From assembly GCF_014174275.1 (NCBI RefSeq), contig NZ_JABEQK010000006.1, positions 1 through 64,000 on the forward strand: a DNA stretch of 64,000 bases, in the 5' to 3' direction. Below the pieces are notes generated by a model that saw only the letters and a list, made by a program, of their open reading frames with translations, ran no database searches and was not told the origin of the DNA. The number at the start of each line of letters is the position of its first letter. Position 1 is the first letter of the stretch. Shown here piece after piece: positions 35,123 through 48,970 of the stretch. Source of the DNA: Gluconacetobacter takamatsuzukensis. Lineage in GTDB: Bacteria; Pseudomonadota; Alphaproteobacteria; Acetobacterales; Acetobacteraceae. The position numbers were made by a program, and so were the translations under genes.

Positions 35123-35908
35123 TCAGGTTCCCGTGCCCCCCGACGCCCCGGCGGCGTCGCGGTCCAGCAGCAGGATCTCGCCGGTCGAAATCCGTTTCAC
35201 CCCCTCGGCACAACGCAGCAGGAGCATCCCCTGCGCGTCCAGGCCGACGAACGAACCTTCTAACTGCCCGCTTTCGCCGCGCACTACAAGTCTGGTGCCT
35301 ACAGGGTGGGCACGCTCCAGCCATGCCGTGCGCAGAACATCGAACCCACGGTCCCGCCAGACAGCCTGCCAGCGATCCAGTTCGGCACAGATCCCACGGG
35401 CCACAAGCTCGGGCTCCGGCGCGGTTCCGTAGTCGGCGACACAGGCCAGCGCCCGCCCGGCAATCGAAGGCACCGCCCGCAGATTGGCCCCGAACCCGAT
35501 GACCAGCCACCGCCCCGTGGCATCGCTCCCGCTCTCGATCAGGATACCGGCGGTCTTGCGTCCGGCCAGCAGCAGATCGTTGGGCCATTTCAGCCGCAAC
35601 AGGGCCGGATCGTCGATCCACGGCAGGATCGCCCCATGAAAGGCCAGCCCGGCCACGAACGGCCAGAGCCCGACCGCCCCATCCACCCCGGCGGGGCGCA
35701 GCAGAACCGAGAAAGCCAGATTGCCGCCGGGGTCCTGCCAGTCGCGCCCCCGGCTCCCCCGGCCGCTGGTCTGCCGGCGGGCCATGACCGCCAGCCCCGC
35801 CTCCGCTCCCTGCCCCGCCTGCGCGATGCAGTAATCGGAGGTCGAGCCCAGCTCGTCATATATCTCAAGGCGCCAGGCCGTCCCGCCCGGCGCCGTACCC
35901 GCACTCAC
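35123..35908 (-). CDS. birA: biotin-[acetyl-CoA-carboxylase] ligase
   Basis: The 261-residue enzyme attaches biotin to acetyl-CoA carboxylase. It has the biotinyl-5'-AMP loop GRGSRGRDWQDPGGNLAFSVLLRP and WPNDLLLAGRKTAGILIE. There is no N-terminal DNA-binding domain, so it is not a repressor. GTG 35908 overlaps the nuoN stop (GTGA), so the gene is coupled to the nuo operon, a common alphaproteobacterial arrangement. Confidence 0.92.
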   Translation of the reverse strand: MSAGTAPGGTAWRLEIYDELGSTSDYCIAQAGQGAEAGLAVMARRQTSGRGSRGRDWQDPGGNLAFSVLLRPAGVDGAVGLWPFVAGLAFHGAILPWIDDPALLRLKWPNDLLLAGRKTAGILIESGSDATGRWLVIGFGANLRAVPSIAGRALACVADYGTAPEPELVARGICAELDRWQAVWRDRGFDVLRTAWLERAHPVGTRLVVRGESGQLEGSFVGLDAQGMLLLRCAEGVKRISTGEILLLDRDAAGASGGTGT

Positions 35909-37329
35909 CTGAACAGGGCCTGTGCCGCCGCCTGGGCCGCCGTCGAAACCGGCCCCAGCACGATCAGGAACCCGGCCGTGGCAATCCCCATCCCGACCGA
36001 GACGAAGGACAGCGACAGCGGCCGCCGGTCGAGCGGCGCCGCCGCCTCGTCGAAGAACATCACCTTGATGATGCGCACATAGTAATAGGCACCGATCACG
36101 CTGCTGACGACACCGACCGCCGCCAGACCGAACAGATGGGCATTGATCGCGGCATAGAACACCATCAGCTTGCCGAAGAACCCGGCCAGCGGCGGCGCCC
36201 CCGCCATGCTGAACATGAAGATCGCCATCGCCGTCGCCAGCCCCGGATCGGTACGGCCCAGCCCGGCCAGGTCGGCAATCCCCGTCACCGCACGCCCCTT
36301 GCGACGCATGGCGATGATCACGGCAAAGGCCCCGACATTCATCAGCAGATAAGTGGTCAGATAGACCAGTGTCCCGCGCATGCCCTCTTCGGTACCGGCC
36401 GACAGGCCCATCAGCGCATAGCCCATATGGCCGATCGAGGAATAGGCCATCAGCCGCTTGATATCGGTCTGTGGAATGGCCGCCAGCGAGCCGAACAGCA
36501 TCGACACGATCGAAATGGCCTCAATCAGGATCTGCCATTGCGGCGCGACGTGGCCGAACGGCCCCGCCATCACCCGCAGCAGCAGCGCAAAGGCCGCGAT
36601 CTTCGGCGCACCGGCCATGAAGGCCGTCACCGGCGTCGGCGCACCCTGGTAGACGTCAGGCGTCCACATATGGAACGGCACCGCCGAGAGCTTGAAGGTC
36701 AGGCCCGCCAGCATGAACACGATGCCGATCATCAGCCCCATCGGCACGGCCGAGGTGGCACTGAGCGCCGTCTGGATGGCGCCATATTCCATGGTGCCGG
36801 CAAAGCCGTAGACCAGCGCCGAACCGTAGAGCAGCAGGCCAGAGGCCAGCGAACCGAGCACGAAATATTTCAGCCCCGCCTCGGCGCCCCGCACATCGTC
36901 CCGCGCGAAGGCGCAGAGGATGTAGATGGCCAGCGACGACAGTTCCAGCCCGATGAACAGCGTCATCAGATTACCCGACGATGCCATCATCATGGTGCCG
37001 AGGGTCGAGAACAGCAGCAGGACCGGGAATTCGAACCGCTCCACCTTCAGTTCCCGCGCATAGCCCACGGTCAGCATCGTCGCCAGCGCACCGCCGGCCA
37101 GGCTGAGCAGCTTCATGAAGCGGGCAAAGCTGTCATTGACGAAGATGTGGTTGTAGCCGGTCCCGTCCGGCGACACCACGACCAGGAACGCGGTCAGGAC
37201 GAAGGCGCCGATCGTCAGCATGGAGCAGGAGAGGAAGGGCTGCCCCTTCTTTTGCACCACCCCGAAGACGAGGATCGCGAGGCCGCACAGCGCCAGGACG
37301 ATTTCCGGCAGAGCAAGTGTCCAGTTCAT
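35905..37329 (-). CDS. nuoN: NADH-quinone oxidoreductase subunit N
   Basis: The 474-residue antiporter-like membrane subunit of complex I begins MNWTLALPEIVLALCGLAIL and includes GLELSSLAIYILCAF, the discontinuous-helix region VPFHMWTPDVYQGAPTPVTAFMAG and AYSSIGHMGYALMGL, typical of NuoN rather than NuoM or NuoL. The upstream open frame to 37527 overlaps nuoL and does not fit, so ATG 37329 is the start. The gene normally preceding it, nuoM, is absent: nuoL ends 23 bp upstream. Confidence 0.95.
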   Translation of the reverse strand: MNWTLALPEIVLALCGLAILVFGVVQKKGQPFLSCSMLTIGAFVLTAFLVVVSPDGTGYNHIFVNDSFARFMKLLSLAGGALATMLTVGYARELKVERFEFPVLLLFSTLGTMMMASSGNLMTLFIGLELSSLAIYILCAFARDDVRGAEAGLKYFVLGSLASGLLLYGSALVYGFAGTMEYGAIQTALSATSAVPMGLMIGIVFMLAGLTFKLSAVPFHMWTPDVYQGAPTPVTAFMAGAPKIAAFALLLRVMAGPFGHVAPQWQILIEAISIVSMLFGSLAAIPQTDIKRLMAYSSIGHMGYALMGLSAGTEEGMRGTLVYLTTYLLMNVGAFAVIIAMRRKGRAVTGIADLAGLGRTDPGLATAMAIFMFSMAGAPPLAGFFGKLMVFYAAINAHLFGLAAVGVVSSVIGAYYYVRIIKVMFFDEAAAPLDRRPLSLSFVSVGMGIATAGFLIVLGPVSTAAQAAAQALFR

Positions 37330-37352
37330 CGGTTCAAACCCGTTCCCGGAGA

Positions 37353-39293
37353 TCAATGGAAGACCAGCAGGGTGGAGACGAGCACCACCAAGCCGATCAG
37401 CATCGTGAAGGCATAGATCGCGATCGAACCGGTCTGGGTCCGCACCGCCTGCGCGGCGGTGCCCGCCGTCATCCGGGCCAGACCGTGGGGAATCCCCTCG
37501 ATCACCCCTTCGTCCGCGCCCTTCCACAGCAGGTTGGCCAGCGCGCGATACGGCCGCACGAACAGATGGTCATACAGTTCGTCGAAATACCATTTGTTCA
37601 GCAGGAACAGGTAGATCGGCCGCAGGCTGGTCGCGAACGACGCCGGAATGGTCGGGCTGGCCACATAGCACAGATAGGCAACCAGAATCCCCAGCACCCC
37701 GGCAAAGGTCGGCACCAGCGCAATCAGTTCCGGCGTCTGTTCCAGTGTCGCGATGATGGTATTGCCCGGCGCGTTGACGATCGCCCCGTTCCAGAAGGCC
37801 GCCTGGCCCTCGCCGACATAGTACGGCGCCAGCAGCAGGCCGGCCAGTACCGCGCCGACCCCCAGCAGGACCAGCGGCAGCGTCATCCACGCCGGGCTCT
37901 CATGCGCGCCCTCGTGCAGGTGGGCATCGCGCGGCGTGCCGTGGAAGACCAGGAAGATCAGGCGCCAGCTATACAGCGCGGTGATGAAGGCGGTGACACA
38001 GCCCAGCGTCCAGCCATAGAAGCCCAGGCTGCTATGGGCCATCCAGGTCGCCTCCAGGATCGCATCCTTGGACCAGTAGCCGGCGAACGGGAAGATCCCG
38101 GCCAGCGCCAGGCTGCCCAGCCACATCGCGCCATAGGTCAGCGGGATCTTCTTCCACAGCCCGCCCATGCGGAACATGTTCTGTTCGTCATGCACGGCAT
38201 GGATCACCGACCCCGCACCCAGGAACAGCAGCGCCTTGAAGAAGGCATGCGTCGTCAGGTGGAACATCGACGCCTGATAGGCCCCGGCCCCAACCGCCAT
38301 GAACATGTAGCCCAGCTGCGAGCAGGTCGAATAGGCGATGGTGCGCTTGATATCCGGCTGCACCAGCCCGACCGTGGCGGCGAAGAAGCAGGTCGTCGCC
38401 CCGATGAACAGGATGAACGCCTTGGTATCGGGGGCGAACTCGACCAGCGGCGACATCCGCGCCATCAGGAACACGCCCGCCGTCACCATGGTCGCGGCAT
38501 GGATCAGGGCGGAGACCGGCGTCGGCCCCTCCATCGCGTCCGGCAGCCAGGTGTGCAGGAAAAGCTGCGCCGACTTGCCCATCGCGCCGACGAACAGCAG
38601 CAGGCAGATCGTCTCGTAGATCCGATGCGTGCCGAACAGCGTATAGGTATCGTCACCATGCGCCGGCACCAGCGCGAAGATATTGTCGTACGTCACCGAG
38701 CCGAATTCGACGAACAGCAGCGCGATCCCGACCATGAAGAACAGGTCGGCAACGCGGTTGACCACAAAAGCCTTGATCGCGGCGGCGCAGGCGCTGGGGC
38801 GGTCGTACCAGTAGCCGATCAGCAGGTAGCTGGCCAAGCCAACGCCTTCCCAGCCGAAGAAGAGCTGGATCAGGTCGTTCGACGTCACCAGCATCAGCAT
38901 GGCGAAGGTAAACAGCGAGAGGTAAGAGAAGAACCGATAGGTCGGGATCGTCTCATGCCCCATATAGCCGATGCTGTAGATGTGCACGAGGGCCGAGACC
39001 GCCGTGACCATGGCGACCATCGACAGCGACAGCGTGTCCAGCCGCAGCGTCCAGGCGGCATGGAAGCTGCCGGCGCGGATCCAGTCCGCCAGTTGCACCA
39101 CCACCGGCATGCCGCCGGCATGCATCGCGGTAAACAGCGCGCCGCTGCCGCACAGGGCCGCGATCACCATCACGGACGTGGTCAGCGCCTTGGCCGGCCC
39201 GTCGCCCATCATCCGTCCGAACAGGCCCGCCACCATGCAGGCGAACAAGGGTGCCAGGACCGCGATCTCGAAGAGGGTAGATGCCGTTTGCAT
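37353..39293 (-). CDS. nuoL: NADH-quinone oxidoreductase subunit L
   Basis: The 646-residue distal antiporter-like subunit of complex I has LIQLFFGWEGVGLASYLLIGYWYDRPSA, FLHTWLPDAMEGPTPVSALIHAATMVTAGVFLMAR and YSTCSQLGYMFMAVG. The C-terminal tail with KWYFDELYDHLFVRPYRALA corresponds to the lateral helix that clamps along NuoM and NuoN. The protein is complete. In known structures NuoL docks on NuoM, whose gene is missing here. Confidence 0.96.
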   Translation of the reverse strand: MQTASTLFEIAVLAPLFACMVAGLFGRMMGDGPAKALTTSVMVIAALCGSGALFTAMHAGGMPVVVQLADWIRAGSFHAAWTLRLDTLSLSMVAMVTAVSALVHIYSIGYMGHETIPTYRFFSYLSLFTFAMLMLVTSNDLIQLFFGWEGVGLASYLLIGYWYDRPSACAAAIKAFVVNRVADLFFMVGIALLFVEFGSVTYDNIFALVPAHGDDTYTLFGTHRIYETICLLLFVGAMGKSAQLFLHTWLPDAMEGPTPVSALIHAATMVTAGVFLMARMSPLVEFAPDTKAFILFIGATTCFFAATVGLVQPDIKRTIAYSTCSQLGYMFMAVGAGAYQASMFHLTTHAFFKALLFLGAGSVIHAVHDEQNMFRMGGLWKKIPLTYGAMWLGSLALAGIFPFAGYWSKDAILEATWMAHSSLGFYGWTLGCVTAFITALYSWRLIFLVFHGTPRDAHLHEGAHESPAWMTLPLVLLGVGAVLAGLLLAPYYVGEGQAAFWNGAIVNAPGNTIIATLEQTPELIALVPTFAGVLGILVAYLCYVASPTIPASFATSLRPIYLFLLNKWYFDELYDHLFVRPYRALANLLWKGADEGVIEGIPHGLARMTAGTAAQAVRTQTGSIAIYAFTMLIGLVVLVSTLLVFH

Positions 39294-39300
39294 GGCCCGC

Positions 39301-39624
39301 TCAGCCCTTCATCATGGTGATGTCTTCGACCTCGATCGAACCGCGATTGCGGAAATAGACCGTCACGATCGCCAGCCCGATGGCGGATTCGGCCGCCGCG
39401 ATGGTCAGGACGAACAGGGTGAAGACCTGCCCGGACAGATCGCCGAGCGCAGAGGAAAACGCGACGAAATTCAGGTTCGCCGACAGCAGGATCAGTTCGA
39501 TCGACATCAGGATGATGATGACGTTCTTGCGGTTCAGGAAAATGCCGAACACACCCAGAACCAGCAGGATGGCACTGACCGTCAGATAGGGCCCGATGCC
39601 GATGCTTCCCAGTCCGCCGGTCAT
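39301..39624 (-). CDS. nuoK: NADH-quinone oxidoreductase subunit K
   Basis: The 107-residue protein has three transmembrane helices. [46 protein letters not shown]-type sequence carries the conserved membrane glutamates (IELIL; and [11 protein letters not shown]) used in proton translocation. It overlaps nuoJ by 4 bp and is followed by nuoL after 7 bp. Confidence 0.96.
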
Positions 39625-40400
39625 TGCGCCAGCCCTCCATGATTGTCGGCGCCGTGCCCGCTCTCGGGCGCCCCGTCGGCCGGGGCCGCCCCGGCCGGCT
39701 TGCCCTGGGGCACGGGCTCGGCCGTCACCCCGTACGATCCGGGAACCGACGCGATGTAGTAGGATTGCTCGGGCCGGCGGAAGCCGCCATTGGCGGCCAC
39801 CCCCTGCCCCAGCGGCACGGTCATCATGGCGAGCGTATCCGCCGCCGTGCGCTCGTGCTGCCGGTCGATGTTCTGCCGGCGCCCCATCGGCCGTTCGCGC
39901 AGCGTCAGCACGATGGCACCGATCATCGCCACCAGCAGCACCAGGCCGCAGGCCTCGAACAGGAAGACATAGTGCGTATACAGCACGTCACCCAAGGCCG
40001 CTGTATTGGTTCGGCCCGGCGCCGCCACCACATGCGGAACCGAGGCGATATCGGCCGCCACCTGCCAGTGGCTGAAGGCCAGCGCCAGTTCCGCCAGAAG
40101 CACCAGTCCCACGGCCGCCCCGAAGGGCGCGTAACGCTGCAACCCTTCGCGCATCTGCGCGAAGCGGACATCCAGCATCATCACGACGAACAGGAACAGC
40201 ACCGCGACGGCGCCGACATAGACAATGACCAGGATCATCGCCAGGAATTCGGCACCCGCGACCAGGAACAGACCCGCGGCATTGAAAAAGGCGAGGATCA
40301 GGAACAGCACGGAATGAACGGGGTTGCGCGCGCTGACCACCATTCCGGCCGACAGGACCAGTACCGTCGCGAACACGTAGAAGACGATTTGGGTCATCAT
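39621..40400 (-). CDS. nuoJ: NADH-quinone oxidoreductase subunit J
   Basis: The 259-residue membrane subunit has five predicted helices in the first 175 residues, including [53 protein letters not shown]-type sequence with the pi-bulge region of ND6. The last 80 or so residues are a hydrophilic tail ([20 protein letters not shown]), longer than in E. coli and as seen in several alphaproteobacteria. Confidence 0.94.
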
Positions 40401-40457: not shown

Positions 40458-40946
40458 TCAACGATAGGGCGCATCGAGTTCCAGCCGTCGTGCCAGGACA
40501 CTTTCCCAGCGGTCGCCGTTCGCGAGCAGCTTGTCCTTGTTGTACATGAGTTCCTCGCGCGTCTCGGTCGCGAACTCGTAATTCGGCCCCTCGACGATCG
40601 CATCGACCGGGCAGGCTTCCTCGCACAGGCCGCAATAGATGCATTTCGTCATGTCGATGTCGTAGCGCGTGGTGCGCCGCGACCCGTCATCGCGCGGTTC
40701 GGATTCGATCGTGATCGCCTCGGCCGGGCAGGTCGCCTCGCACAGCTTGCAGGCAATGCAGCGCTCCTCGCCGTTCGGATAGCGGCGCAGCGCATGTTCA
40801 CCGCGGAAACGGGGCGACAGCGGCCCCTTTTCGTAGGGATAGTTGATCGTCACCTTGGGTTTGAAGAAGGCCCGCAGCGTCGCTCCCATGCCGGCCACCA
40901 GCTCGGCCAGCAGGAAGGAACGGACCGTTCGGTCAAGAGTGCCCAT
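40458..40946 (-). CDS. nuoI: NADH-quinone oxidoreductase subunit I
   Basis: The 162-residue subunit binds clusters N6a and N6b through two CxxCxxCxxxCP motifs: [12 protein letters not shown] and [13 protein letters not shown] chose ATG 40946, which overlaps the nuoH stop by one base (TGATG). It links the peripheral arm to the quinone site. Confidence 0.96.
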
Positions 40947-41971
40947 CAGCTCGCTCCTCCCTGGGGCAACAGCCCGGTGGCCAGCAGGAAGCCCGCCGTC
41001 AGCACCATCCACACCAGCGAGAGCGGGAGGAACACTTTCCACCCCAGCCGCATCAGCTGGTCGTAGCGGTAGCGCGGGAACGTCGCGCGCACCCAGATGA
41101 AGACGAACAGGCAGAACAGGATTTTCGCAATCAGCCACAGCGGCCCCGGGATCCAGGTAAAGGGCGCGATCCCGATCGGCGGCAGCCAGCCACCGAGGAA
41201 CAGGATGCTGACCATGCCCGACATCAGGAACATGTTGGCATATTCGCCCAGGAAGAAGAGGCCGAAGGCCAGCGCCGAATATTCGACGAAGAATCCGGCC
41301 ACCAGTTCACTCTCGCCCTCGGGCAGGTCGAACGGCGCGCGATTGGTTTCCGCCAGCGCCGAGATGAAGAAGATGATGAACATCGGGAACATCGGCAGGC
41401 AGAACCAGACATGGCGCTGCGCCAGCACGATGTCGTTCAGGTTCAGGCTACCCACCGCCAGCAGCACCGACACGATCACCAGGCCGATCGAAACCTCGTA
41501 CGACACCATCTGCGCCGCGGCACGCAGGCCGCCGAGAAAGGCATATTTCGAATTCGACGCCCAACCCGCGATCAGCACGCCATAGACACCCAGCGACGAG
41601 ATCGCGAGCAGATACAGCACCCCGACATTGATATTGGCGATCGCCCACCCGTCATTGGTCGGGATCACCGCCCAGGCGGTCATGGCCAGCGAAAAGGTCA
41701 GGAACGGCGCGAACAGGAACAGGAACCGGTTGGCCCCAGACGGGATCACCGTTTCCTTGGTGATCATCTTGATCGCGTCGGCAAAGGCCTGGAGCACGCC
41801 GAACGGGCCATTGACGTTCGGCCCCTTGCGGAGCTGCATCGCCGCCATGACCTTGCGTTCGGCCAGCGTCAGATAGGCCACGCCCAGCAGAAGCGGCACC
41901 AGAACGGCCAGGGCCTCGAGAACCGTCAGGATCACCTGGCCGATCATTGTGTGCAGAAAGAAATGCGCCAC
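40946..41971 (-). CDS. nuoH: NADH-quinone oxidoreductase subunit H
   Basis: The 341-residue ND1-type subunit has eight membrane helices and helps form the quinone-binding pocket. Recognised segments are [65 protein letters not shown] and [21 protein letters not shown]-like. Length is normal. Confidence 0.96.
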
Positions 41972-41977
41972 GTCGCC

Positions 41978-44044
41978 TTACTCCGCCGCCACGGTCCGGG
42001 GATGGACATAGATCCGCGAACATTCACCCATCGTCGGGCTGGCCCGGCAGATCGGATCCGTCTGATAATAATCGTCGAACACCGGGCGGAACGGCGCCGG
42101 CAACACCGCGCCACCATCCGACGGCCCGGGCAGCGCCGCCGCATCCACCGCATCCAGCCCGCCGATCACCCGGAAGACCGGATTGACCGTGGCCAGCCGC
42201 TCGCGCAGCACCTCCACCGTGTCGTAGGGCAGCGTATGGCCCACGACTTCCGAGAAGGCGCGCAGGATGCGCCAGTCCTCGCGTGCGTCGCCCGGCGGCA
42301 TGACCGCCCGGAACGACCGCTGGACCCGCCCCTCGGTATTCACATAGGTGCCCGATTTCTCGGCATAGGCCGCACCGGGCAGGATCACATCCGCCCGCGC
42401 CGCCGCCGCGTCGCCATGATGGCCCTGATAGATGACGAACGTCTTCGGCCCGATCTGCGCGGTATGGAACTCGTCCGCCCCCAGCAGCCACAGCACGTCG
42501 ACGCCGCCGCTCATCATCCCGGCGGCACTGCGCCCGCCCTTGCCCGGCACCAGCCCCAGGTCCAGACCGGCAACCCGGCTGGCCGCGCGATGCAGGACAT
42601 TGAAGCCGTTCCAGCCGGCGCCGATCGCACCGGTCTCGACCGCCAGCGCCCAGGCCGAAGCCAGGATTGCCCGCGCATCGGGCCGCGTCAGCGCCCCATG
42701 CCCGACGATGATCATCGGCTTCTTCGCCGCCTTCAGCGTCGCGGCGAAGGGATGCGTGCCGTCGCGCAGAGCGGCCAGCACATCCGGCCCCTCGCCCAGC
42801 ACGTCCGCCGAGTAGGTCGGGTCGGCCGTCGGCGTACCGATCAGCCCGATCGGGAAACCGCCCCGGCCCGCCGCCAGAAAGCGCTTGCGAATGCGCGCAT
42901 TCAGCACCGGCGCTTCCTGGCGCGGGATCGAACCCACCACCAGCAGCGCATCGGCATCCTCGATCCCGGCAATGGTGGTGCCGAACGTGTAATAGGCCCG
43001 CTGCGACAGATCGTAATCCGCGCCATCCTGGCGGCAGTCGATATTGGGCGAACCCAGCGCAACCATCAGGTCCTTCAGCGCCAGCATGCTCTCGGCGTCG
43101 CACAGATCGCCGGCAATGGCGCCGATCCGGTCGCCCGGCACGCCATCCAGCCGCCGGCCGATGGCCACGAACGCATCCTGCCAGGAAACAGCCTGCAACT
43201 TGCCATGGACCCGCACCCAGGGCCGGTCCAGCCGCCGATGCTTCAGCCCATCGACCGAGAAACGCCCCTTGTCGGCCAGCCATTCCTCGTTCACCGCGTC
43301 ATTGACGCGGGGCACGGCCCTCAGCACGGCGCTGCCGCGCACCTGCAGGCTGATATTGGTCCCCACCGCATCGCTGACATCGATCGAATCCGTCCGCTTC
43401 AGCTCCCACGGCCGGGCGGTGAAGGCATAGGGTTTCGAGGTCAGCGCGCCCACCGGGCAGATGTCGATCAGGTTGCCCGACAGTTCCGAGGTCAGCGCCT
43501 TCTCGACGTAATTGGTGACTTCCATGTTCTCGCCGCGCGAGACCGCACCCAGTTCGGGCACGCCCGCGATCTCGGTCGCGAAACGGATGCAGCGCGTGCA
43601 CTGGATGCAGCGCGTCATCACGGTCTTCACCAGCGGGCCGAGATATTTGTCCTTCACCGCGCGCTTGGCTTCCTGGTAGCGCGAATGATCGGCACCGTAG
43701 CCGAAGGCCTGGTCCTGCAGGTCGCATTCGCCGCCCTGGTCGCAGATCGGGCAATCCAGCGGATGGTTGATCAGCAGGAATTCCATCACCGCCCGTCGCG
43801 CCTTGCGCACGATCTCGGTGTCGGTCAGGATTTCCATCCCCTCCGCCACCGGAAACCCGCAGGACGCCACCGGCTTGGGCGCCCGCACGACCTGCACCAG
43901 GCACATGCGGCAATTGCCCGCCACCGACAGGCGCTCATGGAAACAGAAGCGCGGGATTTCCTTGCCGGCCGCCTCGCACGCCTGCAACGCGCTGGACCCG
44001 TTGGGAACGTCGACCACGATCCCGTCGACGGTTACTTTCACCAT
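41978..44044 (-). CDS. nuoG: NADH-quinone oxidoreductase subunit G
   Basis: The 688-residue iron-sulfur subunit has an N-terminal 2Fe-2S ferredoxin domain (HERLSVAGNCRMCLV, N1b), the histidine-ligated 4Fe-4S cluster N5 region (NHPLDCPICDQGGECDLQD) and N4 (CIQCTRCIRFATEIAG), then a molybdopterin-oxidoreductase-like domain without cofactor. ATG 44044 begins MVKVTVDGIVVDVPNG. It starts 5 bp after nuoF ends. Confidence 0.95.
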   Translation of the reverse strand: MVKVTVDGIVVDVPNGSSALQACEAAGKEIPRFCFHERLSVAGNCRMCLVQVVRAPKPVASCGFPVAEGMEILTDTEIVRKARRAVMEFLLINHPLDCPICDQGGECDLQDQAFGYGADHSRYQEAKRAVKDKYLGPLVKTVMTRCIQCTRCIRFATEIAGVPELGAVSRGENMEVTNYVEKALTSELSGNLIDICPVGALTSKPYAFTARPWELKRTDSIDVSDAVGTNISLQVRGSAVLRAVPRVNDAVNEEWLADKGRFSVDGLKHRRLDRPWVRVHGKLQAVSWQDAFVAIGRRLDGVPGDRIGAIAGDLCDAESMLALKDLMVALGSPNIDCRQDGADYDLSQRAYYTFGTTIAGIEDADALLVVGSIPRQEAPVLNARIRKRFLAAGRGGFPIGLIGTPTADPTYSADVLGEGPDVLAALRDGTHPFAATLKAAKKPMIIVGHGALTRPDARAILASAWALAVETGAIGAGWNGFNVLHRAASRVAGLDLGLVPGKGGRSAAGMMSGGVDVLWLLGADEFHTAQIGPKTFVIYQGHHGDAAAARADVILPGAAYAEKSGTYVNTEGRVQRSFRAVMPPGDAREDWRILRAFSEVVGHTLPYDTVEVLRERLATVNPVFRVIGGLDAVDAAALPGPSDGGAVLPAPFRPVFDDYYQTDPICRASPTMGECSRIYVHPRTVAAE

Positions 44045-44049
44045 CGTTC

Positions 44050-45387
<1,338 letters not shown>

Positions 45388-45402: not shown

Positions 45403-46041
45403 TCAACCCTGATCCGCCGGACTGTCCGCCAGCGTCTTGCGCCCGCCGGCCGGCGCCGAGCCCACCCGGTCGATCGTCGGTCCCGGCGCCGGGCGTTCCC
45501 CGCGACGCAGCGCCTCGATCAGCTCGATCGTGCGCGGCCCGTCCAGATCCTCGTAGAAATCGTCGTCAACCTGCAGGATCGGCGCATTGGCGCAGGCCCC
45601 CAGGCACTCCACCTCGGTCAGGGTGAACAGCCCGTCGGCGCTCGACTGGCCGAAACCGGAAATCCCGGTCGCCTTCTTGCAGGCCGCGACCACATCGTCC
45701 GACCCCCGCAGCCAGCACGAGGTCGTGGTGCAGACCTGAAGATGATACCGCCCGATCGGCTTGGTATTGAACATCAGGTAGAAGGTCGCCACCTCGTAGA
45801 CACGGATCGGCGCGACCTCCAGCCGGCGCGCGATCTCGTCCATCGCCACGCGCGGCACCCAGGCGCTGCCGGTCTGCCGGCCCATCTGCTTCTGCACGAC
45901 ATACAGAAGCGGGAGCGTGCCGCTGGCCTTACGCTCGGGCGGATACTTGGCCAGGATCGCCGCGATCTGCTCTTCGCTCTCGGCATCGAAGGCGAAGGAG
46001 TCGGGCTGTTCGATCTGGTCGATGGGGGAATGAGCGGACAT
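45403..46041 (-). CDS. nuoE: NADH-quinone oxidoreductase subunit E
   Basis: The 212-residue thioredoxin-fold subunit binds the 2Fe-2S cluster N1a through CTTTSCWLRG and CLGACANAPILQV. ATG 46041, six bases after the nuoD stop, gives the standard N-terminus. A longer frame upstream overlaps nuoD and is not used. The C-terminal 35 residues are an Ala/Pro-rich extension. Confidence 0.95.
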   Translation of the reverse strand: MSAHSPIDQIEQPDSFAFDAESEEQIAAILAKYPPERKASGTLPLLYVVQKQMGRQTGSAWVPRVAMDEIARRLEVAPIRVYEVATFYLMFNTKPIGRYHLQVCTTTSCWLRGSDDVVAACKKATGISGFGQSSADGLFTLTEVECLGACANAPILQVDDDFYEDLDGPRTIELIEALRRGERPAPGPTIDRVGSAPAGGRKTLADSPADQG

Positions 46042-46046
46042 CTCTG

Positions 46047-47297
46047 TCACCTGTCTATCTCGCCGAACACCAGGTCCAGCGACCCGATGATCGCGACCGC
46101 GTCGGCCAGCATGTGGCGGCGCGACATCTCGTCGATCGCCTGCAGATGGGCAAAGCCCGTGGGCCGGATCTTGCACCGGTACGGCCGGTTGCTGCCGTCC
46201 GCGACCAGATAGACCCCGAATTCGCCCTTGGGGCTTTCGACCGCCGTATAGGTCGCCCCCGGCGGCACGTGGTACCCTTCGGTGAACAGCTTGAAATGAT
46301 GGATCAGCGCTTCCATCGACCGCTTCATTTCCCGGCGCGGCGGCGGGGTAATCTTGTGGTCTTGGATCTTGACCGGCCCCGGCTTGATCTGCGCCAGGCA
46401 CTGCTCGACGATCTTCACGCTCTCGCGCATCTCGGCCACGCGCACCAGATAGCGGTCATAGCAATCGCCTTGGCGCGTGACGGGGATGTTGAACGTCACC
46501 TTGTCGTAATTGTCATACGGCTGCGCGCGGCGCAGGTCCCACGGCACGCCCGAGGCACGCAGGCAGGGGCCGCTGAAACCCCAGGCCAGCGCCTGCTCGG
46601 TGGTGAACACGCCGATCCCGACCGTCCGCTGCTTCCAGATCCGGTTGTTGGTCAGCAGCGTTTCCAGGTCGTCGATCCAGCGCGGGAAGTCCCGCGCCCA
46701 TTCCGCGATCCGCTCTTCCAGCCCCGCCGGCAGGTCGCGCGCCACGCCGCCCGGACGGAAGTAATTGGCATGGAAGCGCGCGCCCGATGCCGCCTCGTAG
46801 AATTCGATCAGCTTCTCGCGCTCTTCATATCCCCACAGCGCCGGGGTCAGCGCACCGCAATCGAGCCCGAACGAGGTCAGGTTCAGGATATGGTTCAGGA
46901 TGCGCGTCATTTCGGCGAACATCACGCGAATCCATTTCGCGCGGTCGGGGATCTCGATCCCCAGCAGCTTTTCCGTCGCCAGTGCGAACGCCTGCTCCTC
47001 GCACATCGGCGAGACGTAATCGAGCCGGTCGAAATAAGGCAGCGCCTTGGGATAGGTCTTGTATTCGATCAGCTTCTCGGTGCCGCGATGCAGCAGCCCG
47101 ATATGCGGGATGGCGCGGGCGACGACCTCGCCCTCCATCTCCAGCACCAGGCGCAGCACGCCATGCGCCGACGGATGCTGCGGGCCGAAATTCAGGGCGT
47201 GGGAATCGATCTCCACGGTCCGGATTTCCGCCTTGGCGGCCGCGTCTGCCGACAGCAGCTCTTCGGGAATATCCTCGTGAAGGACAATGTCGCTCAT
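46047..47297 (-). CDS. nuoD: NADH-quinone oxidoreductase subunit D
   Basis: The 416-residue 49-kDa-type subunit lines the quinone cavity. Conserved segments are [22 protein letters not shown] (with the quinone-site histidine), [19 protein letters not shown] and the C-terminal [10 protein letters not shown] and D are separate genes here. Confidence 0.97.
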
Positions 47298-47349: not shown

Positions 47350-48015
47350 TCATCGCGGCAGCTTCAGCCCCTGGCGGGATTCATGCGCCTTCTCGTCGCC
47401 CGGCAGGGTCAGGATGCCCTCCCACGGCGACTCGAAATCGAAATTGCGGAAATCCTGCGTCAGCTTCACCGGCTCGTAGACCACCTGGCGGCGATCCTCG
47501 TCGTACCGCATCTCGACATAGCCGGTCAGCGGGAAGTCCTTGCGCAGCGGATGCCCCTCGAACCCGTAATCGGTCAGGATGCGGCGCAGGTCCGGCTGCC
47601 CCGAGAACAGGACGCCGTACATGTCATAGCACTCGCGCTCCCACCAGGTGGCACACGGCCACAGATGATGCACCGACGCCACCGGATTGGTCTCGTCCGT
47701 GGTCACGATCACCCGGATCCGATGGTTATGCGTCACCGACAGCAGGTTGTAGACGACATCGAATCGCTCGGCCCGCGCCGGGTAATCGACCCCGCACAGA
47801 TCCATCAACTGCTCGCAGGCATAGCGCGGATCGTCGCGCAGCAGGCCCATCAGCGCCAGCAGCCGGTCGCGGCTGGTCCGCACGACCAGCTCGCCATCCT
47901 CGATCGCGGCCGAATGGATACCCGGCACGCCGGTCGACAGCGCAAAGGCCAGGGACCCCAGCGCGCCACGCGCCAGGGACACCTTCGTCATCAGTTCGGT
48001 GCCCGGTTCAGCCAC
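47350..48015 (-). CDS. nuoC: NADH-quinone oxidoreductase subunit C
   Basis: The 221-residue 30-kDa-type subunit has the signature [40 protein letters not shown]. The frame can start at GTG 48015, overlapping the nuoB stop by 8 bp, or at ATG 47991. I cannot decide between them; neither has a strong ribosome binding site. Confidence 0.94.
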
Positions 48016-48583
48016 GGAGAATCGTCCCTGTCCTGCGGATTTTCTTCTGCAACTGCAGGATGCCGTAGATCAGCGCCTCCGCCGTCGGCGGGCAGCCGGG
48101 GACATACACATCCACCGGCACGATCCGGTCGCATCCGCGCACCACGGAATAGGAATAATGGTAATAGCCGCCGCCATTGGCGCAGGACCCCATCGAGATC
48201 ACCCAGCGCGGCTCGGCCATCTGGTCGTAGACCCGGCGCAGGGCCGGCGCCATCTTGTTGGTCAGGGTGCCCGCCACGATCATCACGTCCGACTGGCGCG
48301 GCGACCCGCGGGGGATGATGCCCATCCGGTCCAAATCGTAGCGCGGCATGTAGGCGTGGATCATTTCCACCGCGCAGCAGGCCAGCCCGAAGGACATCGG
48401 CCACAGGCTGCCGGTGCGCCCCCAGTTGACCAGCTTGTCGAGGTTGGCAACGACGAACCCCTTCTCGGTGATCTCGCCGGTAATACCCTTGATGACGGCA
48501 TCCTGCTCCGGCCCCGGGGGCAGCATGTCGCGGTTCCAGGCTATCGCGCCCTGCCCGTCACCTGTCGCATCAGCGGTACTCAT
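48008..48583 (-). CDS. nuoB: NADH-quinone oxidoreductase subunit B
   Basis: The 191-residue subunit carries cluster N2, the last iron-sulfur centre before quinone. The ligands are in GLACCAVEM (adjacent cysteines), [11 protein letters not shown] and [11 protein letters not shown]. The N-terminal 35 residues are a variable extension. Confidence 0.97.
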
Positions 48584-48604: not shown

Positions 48605-48970
48605 TCAATCCCAGTCCAGCGCGCCCTTGCACCATTCGTAAATGAACCCCACCGTCAGGATGCCCAGGAACCCCATCATCGACAGAAAGCCGAACAGGCC
48701 GATCCGCGACAGGCTGACCGCCCAGGGGAACAGGAAGGCAACCTCCAGGTCGAAGATGATGAACAGGATCGCCACCAGATAGAACCGGACATCGAAACGA
48801 TGCCGCGCATCGTCGAACGCCTCAAACCCGCATTCATAGGCCGAGACCTTCTCGGCATAGGGCTTCTGATGACCGAAGAGCAGGGAGCTTCCCAGCATCG
48901 CGCCGGCGATAATGACCGCCAGGACACCGAAGACGAGAACTGGAAAATAATCCGCGAGAACGGACGTCAT
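48605..48970 (-). CDS. nuoA: NADH-quinone oxidoreductase subunit A
   Basis: The 121-residue ND3-type subunit has three membrane helices. The conserved loop [39 protein letters not shown] is plain. GGGAGA before ATG 48970 is its ribosome site. It is the first gene of the nuo operon. The 288-bp gap up to tRNA-Asp should contain the promoter. Confidence 0.96.

Follow-up and report, generated by a model that had tools for sequence, protein, structure and literature searches.

Among the closest described systems is the complex I gene layout of Acetobacter pasteurianus. In strain SKU1108 the complex I cluster spans APT_01737-APT_01725 and nuoM stands apart as APT_00690, so that a separate nuoM is already published for this species (PMC5158111). 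In strain 386B complex I is assigned to APA386B_556-567 and a separate APA386B_2247, the gene name of which is not given there (PMC3751514). Both strains resemble the strain studied here in having a cluster plus one complex I gene apart, but the passages concerned give locus tags only, without a neighbouring gene, a phylogeny or a statement on other genera. In the excerpted proteomic data for A. pasteurianus, four comparisons give values of 0.62, 0.33, 2.16 and 1.78 for NuoM (HN.1610) and of 0.93, 0.31, 2.22 and 2.12 for NuoN (HN.3354), with ten rows of other subunits, HN.3342 to HN.3354; NuoM changes in the same direction as those ten in all four comparisons, save for NuoN (0.93) in the first (PMC10742644). 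The HN numbers appear to follow genome order. As far as the relevant passages go, two nuo operons are reported in G. diazotrophicus, the common one being lost in Asaia and Gluconobacter, with a tree built on nuoHIJKLN (PMC4596401), one complete complex I is described in G. diazotrophicus (PMC2765452), a Fur box precedes a nuo set including nuoCD and nuoM (PMC9368920) which is probably the second operon described below, and gut Acetobacteraceae gained a gammaproteobacterial complex I (PMC6558740). Nuo hits have also been clustered at a spacing of <=250 bp, according to the portion consulted (PMC12361115); gene-cluster surveys of complex I could score genomes of the kind described here as being without nuoM. 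No account of a clade-wide move of nuoM, of its mutL neighbour or of genomes carrying both copies was found in the literature searched, mostly without subscription papers. The sharing of the state by one clade and the two single-contig sister genomes that have an unlinked nuoM besides the operonic one were likewise not met in those searches.

The window, which is the whole 64,000-nucleotide stretch of Gluconacetobacter takamatsuzukensis DNA analysed, carries a nuo operon on the minus strand in the order A-B-C-D-E-F-G-H-I-J-K-L-N-birA. The nuoL gene (37353-39293, 646 aa, full length; TIGR01974, 786.8 bits, cut-off 407.5) and the nuoN gene (35905-37329, 474 aa, ATG at 37329; NF004440, 607.3 bits, cut-off 519) are separated by a spacer of 23 bp (37330-37352), which is the site of nuoM in relatives with a canonical L-M-N operon. 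The coordinates thus confirm the observation, made in the earlier note, of 23 bp without nuoM between the nuoL stop and the nuoN ATG, and a canonical nuoA-N operon, with nuoM between nuoL and nuoN, is not present in the window. The remaining genes are nuoK (39301-39624), nuoJ (39621-40400, 259 aa), nuoI (stretch scanned, 40458-40949), nuoH (40946-41971), nuoG (stretch scanned, 41978-44053; TIGR01973, 726.7 bits, cut-off 470.05), nuoF (44050-45387), nuoE (stretch scanned with a putative start, 45403-46068; TIGR01958, 159 bits, cut-off 142.4), nuoD (46047-47297, separate from nuoC), nuoC (47350-48015), nuoB (48008-48583) and nuoA (48605-48970), with birA (35123-35908) directly after nuoN as in operonic relatives. 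NCBIfam models identified NuoJ, NuoK, NuoL and NuoN, and NuoB to NuoI and BirA each scored above at least one cut-off; nuoE fell below the cut-off of the longer NuoE models, and NuoA matched NuoA models only below their cut-offs (best 104.1 bits, cut-off 155). With that reservation for NuoA, the family models uphold the claim that the other nuo genes are present in standard order on one strand. The best family model for NuoJ (39621-40400, minus strand) spans residues 2-202, with about 57 C-terminal residues lying beyond it. When plasmids were searched with the L-N segment, five records were obtained, in which the matches were short or weak.

The genome of the window strain, a 35-contig draft of 3.78 Mb and 99.98% completeness, was searched for further antiporter-like genes. 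The PF00361 profile found seven antiporter-like places and the NDH_I_M model two places above its cut-off of 263.8 bits, on contigs C1 and C11. The gene on C1 (C1:125092-126600) is an intact nuoM of 502 aa with a GTG start, unlinked to the window operon. Its product scored 545.9 bits against NDH_I_M (C1:125107-126549), and its best match was NF004499, the NADH-quinone oxidoreductase subunit M equivalog, at 595.3 bits (cut-off 585). The gene starts 179 bp past mutL (L008:6029-7912; MutL domains matched), and the protein is 97-98% identical to those of seven named Gluconacetobacter species. All 14 complex I subunits are therefore encoded, 13 in the window (NuoA below model cut-offs) and NuoM on C1. 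The best match among solved structures was chain M of PDB 8qby (450.8 bits over residues 5-499), which we take to be the Paracoccus complex I. Given the intact C1 nuoM in the same genome, the enzyme most likely retains the usual three antiporter-like subunits, and the locus almost certainly represents an ordinary three-antiporter complex I (NDH-1) with a nuoM that has left the nuo operon. Thirteen subunits would come from the window operon and NuoM from the unlinked gene behind mutL, and in the window strain NuoM would take its customary place between NuoN and NuoL. Assembly of E. coli complex I is reportedly not dependent on nuo gene order, to judge by the title of Oppermann 2022; that system is the E. 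coli nuo operon with altered order and is likened to the present case by title only. The lone NuoM would be part of the assembled complex; an indirect indication comes from A. pasteurianus, in which NuoM abundance in the excerpted data follows that of the operon subunits (PMC10742644).

Within the genus, coordinates placed the NuoL and NuoN matches side by side at near-constant spacing in 14 of 14 genomes, the window strain included, and an additional NuoM above cut-off lay away from both operons in 13 of them; the exception, G012, is an assembly of 1310 contigs. The junction is present in the single-contig genus member G013 and in the finished records of G. diazotrophicus (NC_011365.1) and Commensalibacter melissae (CP033087.1). 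For named relatives the lone NuoM was used as query and the best 80 of 120 relatives were taken. Among these best 80, 70 nuoM loci were lone (no adjoining nuoL or nuoN) and 10 operonic. Of the lone loci, mutL was directly upstream (120-202 bp) in 53 and 2.0-3.4 kb upstream in five, and it was absent from the examined flank in 12, one of which, L043, has a flank of only 214 bases. The reverse check of 30 genomes chosen from the 70 found a window-type NuoL in all 30 and nuoN directly after nuoL with no intervening nuoM in 29, the contig of the thirtieth ending inside nuoL; the gap was 12-148 bp in the 16 loci for which it was computed. The adjacency of nuoL and nuoN, which the earlier note had proposed to compare across Acetobacteraceae, is shared by the lone-nuoM relatives. 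Acetobacteraceae with the canonical nuoL-nuoM-nuoN-birA order share with the window K and L before and N and, where the contig extends, mostly birA after, but nuoM is still in the operon and their NuoMs are 50-56% identical to the lone NuoM of the window strain.

The surroundings of the lone gene vary in places. In two Gluconacetobacter species (L026 and L027) mutL and nuoM are separated by about 2 kb that includes an additional frame of some 600 residues. The A. nitrogenifigens group (L042, L044, L045, L047, L064, L065 and L077) has different nuoM surroundings without mutL, so that nuoM or its former neighbours were relocated again. By eye, the frames before nuoM in A. nitrogenifigens itself (L042) are presumably MlaA-, MlaC- and glutathione transferase-like and the frame after it uracil-DNA glycosylase-like; the first two upstream frames were present in seven of 12 loci compared.

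In an alignment of 25 lone NuoMs, the key residues of the proton path that match E. coli E144, K234, K265 and E407, and are discussed in a passage of PMC9271201, were invariant. The equivalent of E. coli M_K173 varied, being Gln in 16, Arg in three and Lys in six of the 25, whereas Lys was invariant in the 18 operonic rows of the family, the 21 rows of the class, nine rows of E. coli-like or other type and two extra ones. This site is residue 168 of the lone NuoM (L004:1105-2613, translated); the loci examined from Gluconacetobacter, Komagataeibacter, Novacetimonas and Acetobacter have Gln there, and a small number of the remaining lone NuoMs have Arg. In E. coli, deamino-NADH oxidase activity was retained at 91% in K173R, 70% in K173C and 50% in K173E, and Gln is not among the changes named in the passage concerned (PMC3046159). 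When the window strain was compared with G. diazotrophicus, dN/dS was 0.15 for the lone nuoM, 0.14 for nuoL and 0.11 for nuoN, and when it was compared with G. johannae 0.17, 0.15 and 0.13, respectively, the lone nuoM being slightly higher than the other two in both pairs. These sequence ratios indicate that the lone nuoM is under purifying selection.

A sample of 110 family genomes, taken out of a larger set, was examined with a NuoN threshold of 1e-100. Window-type NuoN was present in 89 genomes; nuoM lay beside it in 75 and elsewhere in 13, and was not found in one, G094, which is 73% complete. One of the 13, G064, probably reflects a contig break, leaving 12 genomes from 11 genera. The other 21 genomes were without window-type NuoN, and the 15 of these placed in a 42-row RpoB tree formed one clade (support 99), so the joint absence of the unlinked nuoM and the operon among them is one event. 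Nine of the 15 have another complex I type, in which 12 of 12 NuoMs adjoin an E. coli-like NuoL, six have no NuoM match, and a lone-type NuoM was found in none of the 15. G017, G025, G030, G047, G099 and G103 were left out of that tree; G017, G030 and G103 have one NuoM each, the gene being partial in G017 and G103. The operon loss reported in the consulted part of PMC4596401 is in line with this tree and with the NuoL reverse check.

These results bear on the three options offered in the earlier note, of which relocation stands while the other two fall. The idea that the enzyme works with two antiporters, NuoL contacting NuoN directly and fewer protons being pumped, has in its favour the adjacency of nuoL and nuoN in an operon without nuoM. 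At gene level, however, it is refuted by the intact nuoM with its key residues in the same genome, where two NuoMs exceed the family cut-off, by the purifying selection on the lone gene, by its occurrence in 13 of the 14 genus genomes searched and by the absence of the lone type from the placed genomes that are without the operon, and we consider it very improbable. That the assembly dropped about 1.5 kb might be suspected of a draft, but the same junction in the reverse-checked genomes, finished records included, and in a single-contig member of the genus makes such an artefact scarcely conceivable; the opinion that the junction is a real state and not a gap was correct.

A different question is which NuoM serves the window complex. 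The genome has a second NuoM at C11:46529-47983 (NDH_I_M, 508.1 bits) within a second complex I operon (L009, G000:C11:31001-50500), which has a fused nuoCD and its own NuoL2-M2-N2 and is E. coli-like in the NuoM tree. The C11 NuoM could in principle supply the window complex, the lone NuoM then being a spare. However, in seven of the 12 lone-nuoM genomes of the family sample no further NuoM was found at 1e-90, and in the NuoM tree the lone protein falls among those of Alphaproteobacteria, well away from the E. coli-like group, so this arrangement is most unlikely. A second NuoL was likewise not found at 1e-60 in 18 of the 30 reverse-checked lone-nuoM genomes. Supply of NuoM to the window complex by the unlinked C1 gene is thus the preferred reading, and it removes a false alarm, since nothing suggests a shortened complex I in these bacteria. 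The relocation is real, conserved and functionally ordinary bioenergetics of modest evolutionary interest. It provides a natural example of a 14-part complex whose central membrane subunit comes from an unlinked gene across a large clade, and near relatives with operonic or both copies make stoichiometry and co-regulation without an operon testable.

The NuoM tree had 75 rows, including 25 lone NuoMs chosen to span genomes, and these formed one clade (support 100/100) with the NuoM of the window strain inside it. In an RpoB tree of 26 genomes (30 were requested and four had no match), the 11 lone-nuoM genomes were also one clade (100/99). The lone-nuoM state is common to Gluconacetobacter, Novacetimonas, Komagataeibacter, Acetobacter, Commensalibacter, Lichenicoccus and further Acetobacteraceae, which are one clade. 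Its sister in the RpoB tree (97/93) is the pair G112 and G168, both single-contig genomes, which carry an operonic NuoM plus an unlinked NuoM. In the NuoM tree the unlinked NuoM of G112 branches off first within the lone clade, and its gene is flanked not by mutL but by a 293-aa frame that matches no Pfam family and by a GluQ-like tRNA synthetase (PF00749). Between G112 and G168 dN/dS was about 0.04 for the unlinked and about 0.02 for the operonic nuoM, so both copies are under purifying selection.

The simplest reading is that nuoM was copied and the operonic gene then lost in acetic acid bacteria, although the protein trees are not cleanly in agreement. Replacement of the G112 operon with the unlinked nuoM left over, or transfer of the unlinked gene, would fit as well. 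It is possible but rather doubtful that a second, unlinked copy took the place of the ancestral operonic nuoM, G112 and G168 being a living intermediate of operon escape or the remnant of an operon replacement that failed to eliminate the unlinked gene; if true, the G112/G168 lineage may assemble complex I using either of two central pump subunits. AU tests on a NuoM set thinned to 34 rows, with groups defined after the first tree had been inspected, rejected a clade of lone NuoMs with the operonic NuoM of G112 (p-AU 0.00036), the same clade minus the unlinked G112 copy (p-AU 1.2e-6), pairing of the two G112 copies (p-AU 2.0e-5) and all operonic family NuoMs on one side (p-AU 0.00058).

The lone clade stood in the NuoM tree with four rows, G065, G036, G080 and G108 (99/99). 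The fixed-tree analysis used 44 rows, L160, L202 (no NuoN) and, because NuoL was too short, L162 and L163 being dropped and eight of 21 class rows kept, and a further 13 rows were dropped for a joint NuoL+NuoN tree of 31 rows. In the joint tree the lone-nuoM genomes stood with the same four fast-evolving operonic rows (support 97); the lone NuoM therefore agrees with its own NuoL and NuoN. In a quick tree of NuoN only, including the bad row L202, G065 was the one row of the four that stood close, G036, G080 and G108 taking other positions, and in the RpoB tree G112 and G168, and none of the four, are next to the acetic acid bacteria. One clade with G112 was not rejected for NuoL+NuoN (p-AU 0.058). 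In a tree of 39 rows, from which the four fast rows had been removed along with two extra ones, the lone clade lay beside the other operonic family NuoMs. Long-branch attraction may be at work in these NuoM-origin trees. The branch to the lone clade on the fixed tree was 0.61 for NuoM, 0.29 for NuoL and 0.135 for NuoN, although among the operonic rows of the family NuoM changed more slowly (0.87) than NuoL (1.15) and NuoN (1.00); the long NuoM branch would suit either an older split or a faster rate. Among 289 genomes of the class no near donor from outside the family was seen, the best match there being 55% identical (G453).

Other antiporter-like genes were also encountered. Contig C11 carries, on the minus strand, genes for an MrpD-like protein of 592 aa (L010:7072-8850) and an MrpB-like neighbour (L010:9247-10062), both below curated cut-offs. 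A second NuoM is also found in the family genomes G024, G114 and G170 (loci L200 in G024, L201 in G114, and L246, L247 and L248). In G024 and G114 the gene is without adjoining nuoL or nuoN, and the two proteins form their own clade, with Asn replacing K265.
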